In this document: in pieces, positions 53,625 to 56,732 of the stretch
Layout: every line of letters begins with the position of its first letter
Numbering within the stretch: position 1 is the stretch's first letter
Origin: Fimbriimonadaceae bacterium
Lineage (GTDB): Bacteria; Armatimonadota; Fimbriimonadia; Fimbriimonadales; Fimbriimonadaceae
DNA length: 64,000 bases
Direction of reading: 5' to 3'
Assembly: GCA_019638795.1 (NCBI GenBank)
Contig: JAHBTB010000003.1
Span: forward strand, 174,295 to 238,294
Notes under the pieces: model-generated
The model's input: only the letters and a program-made list of their open reading frames with translations
Told to the model about the DNA's origin: nothing
The model's database searches: none
Position numbers and translations under genes: made by a program

Positions 53625-54248
53625 ATGAATTTCATGCTTGACGGCTCAAAGGTCAGACTGACAAACCCGTCGTCCGGGGACACCCTTTGTGCCGTCGTGC
53701 GCCGCCAGATCGGCGCGCAGATCGTCGTCGACGTCGGCGACCGGGCAAAGACGTTCCTCGGCCACGTCGAAGTCGAGTGCTTCAACGACCACGAGCACGT
53801 CTGGTTTGACGGACTGGCCATCGCCACCTTGTCGACCTTCATGGTCGTCCGGCCGACATCGCCCTCCAAGGCCTTGCCGCGCAAGCACCCGCTCTTGCTC
53901 TTGGAGACGCCGCTCCCGACGGAGATGCAGTCGTCGGGCCGGTCGAGCTCGGTCAAAGTCGTCGCGGTGGCCGAGCGCGCCCTCGCCATCGAAGCCTACG
54001 AGACGATCGACATGGAGTCCGACGTGGAACTTGTCGTGTCATGGCGCGGCGACACGATCCGCCTGACCGTCGTCCTGGAAGCCCAGACGGTCGAAGAGTT
54101 CTCGGTGGAGGCCGTCGCCTCGGTCCGAGGGATGTCCAGGGTGAGCCGTGCCGTCTGGACACGGCTCATCCACGAGGCGTCGGAACCCAAACTTCACGTC
54201 GAGCCCGCGCCTCCGACCTCGCGCATCAAGCGCAGTCAGTCGGCGTAG
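53625..54248 (+). CDS. unknown cytosolic protein, possibly PilZ-like
   Basis: The 207-aa protein from the ATG at 53625 has two beta-rich halves. The second half (SSVKVVAVAERALAIEAYET then DVELVVSWRGDTIRLTVVLE and ending RAVWTRLIHEA) has the strand order of PilZ domains, but the R.xxxR and D.S..G c-di-GMP motifs are not present. I treat PilZ as a weak guess. It overlaps the convergent gene by 13 bp. Confidence 0.35.
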   Translation: MNFMLDGSKVRLTNPSSGDTLCAVVRRQIGAQIVVDVGDRAKTFLGHVEVECFNDHEHVWFDGLAIATLSTFMVVRPTSPSKALPRKHPLLLLETPLPTEMQSSGRSSSVKVVAVAERALAIEAYETIDMESDVELVVSWRGDTIRLTVVLEAQTVEEFSVEAVASVRGMSRVSRAVWTRLIHEASEPKLHVEPAPPTSRIKRSQSA

Positions 54249-54823
54249 TAGACCCCGTCGAGGGCGCTCCACATCGCGGCGCACACCACGGTACAGGCCG
54301 ACTTCGCCCGGGCGAAGTCCTCGTCCGACATCGCGGCCATCTTTTCGCGCAACATCTCCGGCTCCGCAAAGTCGGCCGCATGGATGCGGAAGTACTCCCG
54401 TCCCTTGTCGGTGATCTCGGGATAGTGGGCGACGAGACCGGAAAGCTTCGCCTCCGAAGTCTTGGGTTGTTGGGCCTCAAAGGCGTAGAGGGCGCCGAGG
54501 GCCTCAGCCGGCTGGCTGAAGTAGCGCGTCGCGGCGTTGACAAGGACGTCGGTCTGGGGCCGGCGGCTCTCCGCCGTCAAGCCGAGTTCGTAGCGGAAGT
54601 CCCCCCACAGGACCTCGTGCTCCCGCTCTTCCTCGGCGACAGAAGCCTCGCCGATAGTCTGCCAACCCTGGGCGATGGTGCCGATGAACCGGCCGTATTC
54701 GCCCGCGTAGTCTTGCAGTTTCGAACTCGGAAGGGTGCCAGCGACCCACTCTTGGTAGAACGGGTGGTTGTTGATGTCGAATTGGGCAACGATAGCGTCA
54801 ATCTCAGTGATGCGGCCATTCAT
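54236..54823 (-). CDS. heme-oxygenase-fold iron enzyme, CADD/PqqC-like
   Basis: The 195-aa helical protein begins with the signature HPFYQEWVAGTLPSSKLQDY, typical of CADD-type and TenA/PqqC-like proteins. Helices carry spaced Glu/His (AEEEREHEVLW, YFRIHAADF) that in the family bind two iron or manganese ions. CADD of Chlamydia makes p-aminobenzoate from its own Tyr. Whether this one does cannot be read from the sequence. No folate genes are adjacent. Confidence 0.7.
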   Translation of the reverse strand: MNGRITEIDAIVAQFDINNHPFYQEWVAGTLPSSKLQDYAGEYGRFIGTIAQGWQTIGEASVAEEEREHEVLWGDFRYELGLTAESRRPQTDVLVNAATRYFSQPAEALGALYAFEAQQPKTSEAKLSGLVAHYPEITDKGREYFRIHAADFAEPEMLREKMAAMSDEDFARAKSACTVVCAAMWSALDGVYYAD

Positions 54824-54899
54824 CACGGACTACGATACCGGGACCCGCCTGGCCAGGTGTCGGTGGGGCCCGGAAGGACAGGGTCGGCAAAGCAGGTGA

Positions 54900-54959: not shown

Positions 54960-55475
54960 CTAGCGCTTCATGCGGCGCTTCAGCAACGCCGCCGCACCGA
55001 GACCGAGGACGGCCATGCTGGCCGGCTCGGGGACGGCCGTGACGGTGATGTCAAAGAACTCGTTGTCCGAAGCCCTGACGCCATTTCGCGTGGCGTCAAA
55101 TGTCGCCTCAGCAAACGGGCTTGAACCATTACTGTTAAGGTCGTACAGGCCAGGCGTGTCCGTCGACTGAACCTGGAAGCTGAAGAGATTGCCGGTGTAG
55201 TTGGAATCAACCACGGCAGCAGACACGTAGGCCAAGAAGCCAGCGTCGAAGCTGTCAAAGGTCAAGAACGTCGAACCGTTGCCGGGCCACTCGACCGACA
55301 ACCCTGCCGGGGTAAAACCACCGGTCAGCGTCACGGTGCCCGCGAACGTCACGAGCACATAGCCGGAGCCAGGGGCGGCGACCGTTTGGCTGGGGTTCGT
55401 GATGTTAAAGTTGACGACGGCGTTGGCCGATGCGGCGAAGGCAAACAAACCAGCAAGAATAAGAGTCCTCTTCAT
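54960..55475 (-). CDS. PEP-CTERM secreted protein
   Basis: I start at the ATG at 55475 with GGAG six bases before it (171 aa). Signal peptide MKRTLILAGLFAFAASANA; beta-rich body; sorting tail VPEPASMAVLGLGAAALLKR followed by RMKR, nearly identical to the tail of the protein at 30072-30770. Substrate of an exosortase encoded elsewhere. Confidence 0.92.
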   Translation of the reverse strand: MKRTLILAGLFAFAASANAVVNFNITNPSQTVAAPGSGYVLVTFAGTVTLTGGFTPAGLSVEWPGNGSTFLTFDSFDAGFLAYVSAAVVDSNYTGNLFSFQVQSTDTPGLYDLNSNGSSPFAEATFDATRNGVRASDNEFFDITVTAVPEPASMAVLGLGAAALLKRRMKR

Positions 55476-55575
55476 AGTCATCTCCAATCTCCTCGTAACA
55501 TTACCATGCGAATTGCGCGAGGGGGTGACCATGGGACAAATCCCGGCATTATTACGGGTCATGATTTTGCCTCCG

Positions 55576-56664
55576 TCAAAGCTCGTTGTCGTCCACCGAA
55601 CCCAGGGCCGATGACTTCTGGTACTCGGTGACGCGCCCCTCGAAGAAGTTCTGCTCCTTCTTGATGTCCATCAGTTCGGCGAGCCAAGGGAGCGAGTTCT
55701 GGACGCCCGGGTTCAGGGCGGGCAACCCGCAACCCTCAAGCCGACGGTCGGCGATGTAGTCGATGTACTGCTTGAACTCTTCCGCCGACAGGCCGACGCC
55801 GGTCACGGGCAGGCAGTCGTCGATGAACGCCTTTTCCAGGGCGACCGCTTCCTTCATCAGGTCGACCAGCTCGCCGCGGAACTCCGGTGTCCAGATCTGG
55901 GGGTTCTCCTCGACCAACTCCATCATGAGCTGGCGGAAGAGCTCGATGTGGTTTGACTCGTCCCTGAGTGTGTAGCGGAACATTTGGCCGATCCCCGGGA
56001 ACTTGCCCTGGCGGTACAGCGAGAGCACCATGCCAAAAAGTCCGTAGAACTGGGTGCCCTCCATGCATTGGCCGAAGACAAACATGTTCTTGGCGAGGAG
56101 CTTGACGTTCTCGTCCGACGACATGTCCAGGTCACGGCGCATGCCTTGGCTGGTGCGGGTGACGAACTCGTTCTTCTTGCGGATCGTCTCGATGTCCTCG
56201 AACATCGCCTCGCACTCGTGCGGGTTGATGCCCAGCGACGAGATCATGTACAGCAGAGAGTCGGCGTGGATGTTCTCCTCGTGGGCGTGCCGGCCCAACA
56301 CCAACTTCAACTCCGAAGCCGTCACCAACTCCCGGACGACGTGGATGATGTTGTCGCCGACAATCCCTTCGGCGGCGCTGAAGTAGCCCACCGCCATGCG
56401 GATGATCCAGCGGTCGATCTCCTTGAGGGCGGTCTCGCTACGCCACTGCTCGATGTCCTTCTGCATCGGGATGTCTTCCGGCTCCCAATGGTTGGCCTTC
56501 ATCGTGCGGTAAAGGGTGTACGCCCACTGGTACTTGAGCGGCAGGAGGTTGAAGGTCATCGTCTCCCGGCCGTTCACCACCCGTTTACCCGCCTGCGCCT
56601 CGTGCGCTTTGTCCATGTCGAGGACGTATGTCCGGTCGCCAAACGTGTAGTTCATCGTGCTCAT
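55576..56664 (-). CDS. nrdB: class I ribonucleotide reductase small subunit (R2), Tyr-less, class Ic-like
   Basis: The 362-aa R2 protein has all six metal ligands: Glu99 (YFSAAEGIVGDN), Glu130 and His133 (HEENIHADSL), Glu202 (CMEGTQFYGLF), Glu236 and His239 (RDESNHIELF). The position of the radical Tyr (four after His133) is Leu137, and the first ligand is Glu rather than Asp, as in the Chlamydia Mn/Fe enzyme. It should therefore use a metal-based rather than a tyrosyl radical. The C-terminal tail keeps a Tyr in VTEYQKSSALGS for radical transfer. The large subunit is not in the window. Confidence 0.88.
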   Translation of the reverse strand: MSTMNYTFGDRTYVLDMDKAHEAQAGKRVVNGRETMTFNLLPLKYQWAYTLYRTMKANHWEPEDIPMQKDIEQWRSETALKEIDRWIIRMAVGYFSAAEGIVGDNIIHVVRELVTASELKLVLGRHAHEENIHADSLLYMISSLGINPHECEAMFEDIETIRKKNEFVTRTSQGMRRDLDMSSDENVKLLAKNMFVFGQCMEGTQFYGLFGMVLSLYRQGKFPGIGQMFRYTLRDESNHIELFRQLMMELVEENPQIWTPEFRGELVDLMKEAVALEKAFIDDCLPVTGVGLSAEEFKQYIDYIADRRLEGCGLPALNPGVQNSLPWLAELMDIKKEQNFFEGRVTEYQKSSALGSVDDNEL

Positions 56665-56702: not shown

Positions 56703-56732
56703 AATCTACTATATAGCCCCACCGCCCGTCAA
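56703..56732 (-). promoter_or_regulatory. promoter of nrdB with overlapping palindrome
   Basis: Minus-strand -35 TTGACG (56732-56727), 18-bp spacer, -10 TAGATT (56708-56703). An inverted repeat GTAGA-N6-TCTAC (56694-56709) covers the -10. It does not match the NrdR box as I know it. Confidence 0.5.

Follow-up and report, generated by a model that had tools for sequence, protein, structure and literature searches.

The window, a stretch of 64,000 nucleotides from a Fimbriimonadaceae bacterium, encodes a radical-generating subunit (R2, NrdB) of ribonucleotide reductase (RNR) that carries leucine at the position of the radical tyrosine. Judged from its sequence, this protein very probably uses a metal pair in place of the radical tyrosine, as in Chlamydia. 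With high confidence the gene can be regarded as nrdB of a class Ic RNR (NrdBzc of RNRdb), most likely working with a Mn/Fe oxidant instead of a tyrosyl radical. The observation of Leu137 in the first-pass annotation is correct, but sequence comparison places the variant within the already recognised class Ic definition, and the core biochemical idea has been established from Chlamydia. Less described, as far as our alignments and trees indicate, is that the Leu proteins constitute one strongly supported and widespread clade in Verrucomicrobiota, Armatimonadota and their relatives. Essential DNA-precursor synthesis apparently proceeds without a tyrosyl radical across this broad environmental lineage. 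The occurrence of the Leu-type enzyme as sole detected RNR in free-living bacteria also casts doubt on the notion that such metal-only enzymes chiefly serve pathogens and extremophiles as an adaptation.

The nrdB gene and its predicted metal site

The open reading frame at 55576-56664 (minus strand) is intact and encodes an R2 of 362 aa. Its translation starts with the ATG at 56664, opens MSTMNYTFGDRT and ends with the stop at 55576. The product matches Pfam PF00268 (Ribonuc_red_sm; E 9.4e-68) and NCBIfam NF005550 (326.7 bits vs a cut-off of 309), and combines the Ribonuc_red_sm domain with the (D/E)...ExxH...E...ExxH ligands of class I R2 proteins. The closest PDB sequence is the class Ic R2 of C. 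trachomatis (E 4.2e-75), followed by 6y2n (E 3.1e-66), which we take to be the R2 of Saccharopolyspora erythraea. A candidate NrdR box (ctatatag) near 56715, 5' of nrdB, deviates in length from the consensus. The gene and its functional codons are listed below; Ct denotes residues of C. trachomatis NrdB.

55576-56664, minus strand: nrdB, class Ic-type R2 radical-generating subunit, 362 aa (PF00268, NF005550; nearest PDB entry C. trachomatis NrdB)
56368-56370, minus strand: codon of Glu99, metal ligand 1; R2s with a Tyr at the radical site have Asp here (aligned to Ct E89)
56266-56277, minus strand: codons of Glu130-Asn-Ile-His133, metal ligands (aligned to Ct E120 and H123; invariant in the alignment)
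56254-56256, minus strand: codon of Leu137, radical-Tyr position (aligned to Ct F127; Leu in 145/145 relatives)
56059-56061, minus strand: codon of Glu202, metal ligand (aligned to Ct E193; invariant in the alignment)
55972-55974, minus strand: codon of Tyr231, equivalent of Ct Y222, the electron relay in cofactor activation (alignment; role from PMC4118035)
55948-55959, minus strand: codons of Glu236-Ser-Asn-His239, metal ligands (aligned to Ct E227 and H230; invariant in the alignment)
55621-55623, minus strand: codon of Tyr348, C-terminal radical-transfer Tyr, Ct Y338 (alignment; invariant)

The segment E130-N-I-H133-A-D-S-L137 aligns without gaps to E120-A-V-H123-T-H-T-F127 of C. trachomatis, so Leu137 occupies the Phe127/Tyr122 position. 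This confirmed the earlier claim that the radical position is neither Phe nor Tyr. Since Leu was found there in all 145 relatives surveyed, a misassembly or a one-off mutation is ruled out. The ligand set, described before as complete with Glu in first place, was likewise recovered by alignment to C. trachomatis (first sphere E99, E130, H133, E202, E236, H239; second sphere E129, D235). The Trp48/Asp237 equivalents and the C-terminal Tyr are present as W60, D235 and Y348. The surrounding motifs indeed mirror Chlamydia, whose R2 is the best PDB sequence match, though at an identity of 38%. C. trachomatis NrdB (1syy, 4d8g, 4m1i) shares with the window protein the six ligands, Glu as the first of them and a non-Tyr site, and its Tyr222, W51 and Tyr338 all have equivalents. 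Differences from C. trachomatis are Phe127 to Leu137, Gln116 to His126, Ile223 to Thr232 and Ile229 to Asn238.

PMC6370689, which cites Lundin 2009, defines NrdBzc (class Ic) by a Tyr site occupied by Phe, Leu or Val, a first sphere of E,E,H,E,E,H and a second sphere of E,D. The window NrdB matches this RNRdb definition exactly in ligands, second-sphere residues and radical-site residue, and no defining difference was found. Leu lies inside the published definition, and the window protein is therefore a recognised variant. Its ligand and second-sphere pattern differs from the Id (C/S), Ie and cyanophage 'If' rows of PMC6370689. Leu, Ile and Val substitutions at the Tyr site are also attributed to Hogbom 2010 in PMC3824934, and class O ferritin-like proteins carry Phe or Leu (PMC9531940).

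An AF2 model of the window NrdB, computed from a deep alignment including viral R2s, reached a pLDDT of 88.3, with low values only in the C-terminal tail. An earlier AlphaFold model from Leu-type sequences alone (pLDDT 56.6) was discarded. Foldseek and VIA ranked Chlamydia NrdB first, Mn/Fe forms included; superposition by VIA on the Mn/Fe NrdB 4m1i gave a Z of 44.4 over 322 residues at 2.0 A and 38% identity. In the model, Leu137 lies on the predicted helix 117-144, four residues past His133 and on the metal-facing side.

Leu-type relatives and their phylogeny

Scanning genomes of Bacteria and Archaea provided a first set of at least 80 close relatives, hosted by Armatimonadota, Verrucomicrobiota, Lentisphaerota, Kiritimatiellota and, in a few records, other phyla. 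Leu was present at the radical site in 81 of 81 alignable loci. Two records from unexpected phyla, Rubrivivax and Solirubrobacterales, may be contaminated bins; the former lies on a contig of just 3 kb. A wider survey by genome searches yielded 237 R2-like proteins, which together with four references resulted in 241 aligned rows. Conclusions on Tyr-type R2s rest on database sequences and not on the E. coli NrdB used as an alignment reference.

The cellular survey comprised 145 proteins with Glu as first ligand and Leu at the radical site, 62 with Asp and Tyr, 21 with Glu and Phe, 10 R2lox-like proteins with Glu and Phe, and a few fragments or odd rows. Leu or Phe was thus the only partner of a Glu first ligand (145 and 21 R2s, in addition to the R2lox-like proteins), and every R2 with Asp had Tyr (62). 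There was not a single case of Glu combined with Tyr in this survey. The 145 Leu-type relatives represent 123 distinct sequences, all with Leu, of which 119 kept all 13 scored functional positions; W60, D235, Y348 and the relay Y231 were kept in 119 of the 123 as well. The same linkage was seen in viral contigs (49 Asp and Tyr, 29 Glu and Phe) with one Glu and Tyr row, whose motif QELLIHHPTY is apparently shifted in the alignment. Either the alignment of this viral protein (L319:2001-2975, motif QELLIHHPTYDKML) is off by one residue or the R2 itself is unusual. A scan of the viral contigs with a Leu-type profile detected no Leu-type R2.

In the trees, which were built without RNRdb's own NrdBz sequences, the Leu proteins formed a single clade with a support of 100/100. 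The careful tree grouped Leu, Phe and Pseudomonas-type Tyr R2s with a support of 85/53, and a quick tree with viral R2s did not resolve this joint group. A single clade of Leu and all Phe proteins was not rejected (AU p 0.319), and one of all Phe proteins was borderline (AU p 0.049). The branching order of Leu, Phe class Ic and Pseudomonas-type Tyr R2s shifts with sampling, and the radical Tyr may accordingly have disappeared once or on several occasions. Among these relatives, 6y2n has Phe, and the Pseudomonas aeruginosa-type R2 (NrdBza-like) has Asp and Tyr. Neither biochemical work on a Leu-type R2 nor a description of the Leu lineage as a clade was found in the mostly open-access literature covered, which is weak evidence of absence.

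A deep-branching Leu-type R2 (L207; G209:C24:12102-12959) with 47% identity and AEESIHMDSLLHII is sister to all other Leu-type proteins; its residue equivalent to Ct Y129 is His rather than Tyr. Two genomes contain tandem R2 genes (L202, G277:C11:43346-45426; L203, G367:C42:62039-64110), each pairing an ordinary Leu-type copy with a divergent one. In the latter, ligands and C-terminal Tyr are intact, the relay Tyr (Ct Y222) is changed to Asn and the Ct Y129 equivalent to His. Such second copies are possibly specialised or heterodimeric R2s.

The NrdA partner and genome context

The first-pass annotation had proposed to search for nrdA. A single class I large subunit (R1, NrdA) was located on a separate contig (G000:C1:256461-258071). 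It has an ATP-cone and both large-subunit domains. The cysteine motifs SSC, NLCTE and VCNLGS are retained, as are the two adjacent tyrosines of TTYYLR and a C-terminal CxxC. Among PDB entries, 5im3, presumably the NrdA of P. aeruginosa, matches it best. A genome-wide search of the window genome, which is 99.19% complete, detected one R2 and this one R1. The same search found no class III NrdD, and no second match to the R1 model, which a class II RNR would also have matched. With one R2, one R1 and neither class II nor class III detected, the cell must get by with a functional Leu-site R2. This protein is thus the R2 that serves the class I R1, and the only detected radical source.

In 108 of 142 loci of the relatives, the Leu-type nrdB is directly followed by a co-directional nrdA. 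A large part of the remaining loci are truncated or, in Fimbriimonadaceae, have the two genes split as here. Any R2 was found in 17 of 151 sampled Armatimonadota genomes, and three of the 17 are ordinary Phe-type class Ic proteins (L083-L085). A search of 41 Fimbriimonadaceae genomes revealed a patchy distribution of RNR types. As in the window genome, class I is present in a minority. Most have instead a large-subunit gene that the R1 model matches in two separate segments and that looks like a class II enzyme. Two genomes (G657 and G105) apparently have both RNR types.

Two neighbours of nrdB may be mentioned. Directly 3' of it, a fast-evolving PEP-CTERM protein is encoded at 54960-55562 (minus strand), with 54% identity in L003 vs 92% for nrdB. 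Two genes downstream, at 54236-54826 (minus strand), follows a small TENA/THI-4/PQQC-type (heme-oxygenase-like) protein with a weak Pfam match (E 5.4e-6); of the relatives, only the nearest (L003) has it next to nrdB as well.

The proposed metal cofactor and alternative readings

Several features speak for a metal oxidant without a Tyr radical: Glu as first ligand, a radical site lacking Tyr, the relay Y231, the fold match and the tree. The first-pass annotation had predicted a Mn/Fe or Mn/Mn cofactor. The metal-based oxidant is upheld by ligands and fold, and the Mn/Mn option appears less likely. Class Id NrdB (NrdBi) resembles the proposed window enzyme in its Glu first ligand and metal-centred oxidant. 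However, class Id Mn/Mn enzymes combine this Glu with a retained Tyr (PMC8463856) and with Cys or Ser at the second-sphere position equivalent to Glu129 (PMC6370689). The window protein has Leu137 and Glu129 instead and thus departs from class Id at both positions, which makes Mn/Fe more likely than Mn/Mn on the basis of these residues.

We infer the metal identity, oxidation states and electron path of the window R2 as follows. The six-ligand site would take up Mn(II) and Fe(II). Reaction with O2 and one electron relayed via Tyr231 and Trp60 would lead to Mn(IV)/Fe(III). This cofactor, rather than a tyrosyl radical, would then be reduced via Trp60/Asp235 and Tyr348, and the radical path would continue through the Tyr-Tyr pair of NrdA to an active-site thiyl radical. 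Leu137 would occupy the old Tyr pocket as a redox-inert residue.

A homodinuclear Mn2(IV,III) cofactor generated with superoxide as oxidant, as in class Id, is quite improbable for the Leu clade. It would agree with the Glu first ligand common to class Id, would render a Tyr radical unnecessary and could be favoured by clade-specific second-sphere changes that shift metal preference, but the Tyr and the Cys/Ser of class Id are absent here and the fold is more distant (VIA Z 33.8-35.1 to class Id structures vs 44.4 to Chlamydia). A displaced Tyr radical on Tyr94, Tyr139 or Tyr231 is very improbable. The Tyr94 position is occupied by Tyr throughout the Leu-type and by Phe throughout the Phe-type proteins, yet 18% of Tyr-type R2s also have Tyr there. 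Tyr231 is conserved but equals the known relay Y222. Tyr139 lies two residues past Leu137 on the continuous helix 117-144 and is thus predicted to face the other side; the same Tyr is present in Chlamydia. It can hardly be believed that the window NrdB is not the working R2 but an inactive paralogue or an oxidase of the R2lox kind. R2lox also pairs a Glu first ligand with a non-Tyr site, but it has no C-terminal Tyr and carries Ala at the position of F197 (PMC4118035, PMC3824934). The window NrdB has Y348 and F206 at these places. No other R2 was detected in the genome, which is 99% complete and whose sole R1 belongs to class I.

For the favoured Mn/Fe enzyme, resistance to radical scavengers and peroxynitrite had also been predicted. 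Leu-type R2s may have this property, which was offered as a hypothesis for Chlamydia in connection with NO (PMC4118035); the Chlamydia cofactor is still reduced by hydroxyurea (PMC8463856).

Ala98, the residue preceding the first ligand, is shared with Chlamydia; in related proteins this position influences Mn/Fe selection (PMC7239806). Other positions near the ligands distinguish the Leu clade from Phe-type proteins. His126, four residues before Glu130, is fixed in the Leu clade, whereas every Phe-type protein has Gln. Thr232, four residues before Glu236, replaces Ile/Val of the Phe-type and presumably corresponds to the pocket position Ile234 of E. coli. Further differences are His128, Asn131, Asp135, Gln199, Thr204, Gln205 and Asn238. 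Because these conserved changes are foreign to Chlamydia, the metal preference of the Leu clade could differ, and the clade offers a natural comparison for second-sphere control of the Mn/Fe choice. It is conceivable, though rather unlikely, that the Leu lineage is a distinct metal-only R2 which lost its Tyr separately and whose remodelled second sphere (His126, Thr232, Gln199/Gln205, Asn238, together with Leu137) supports a metal pair or oxidation chemistry different from that of Chlamydia class Ic.
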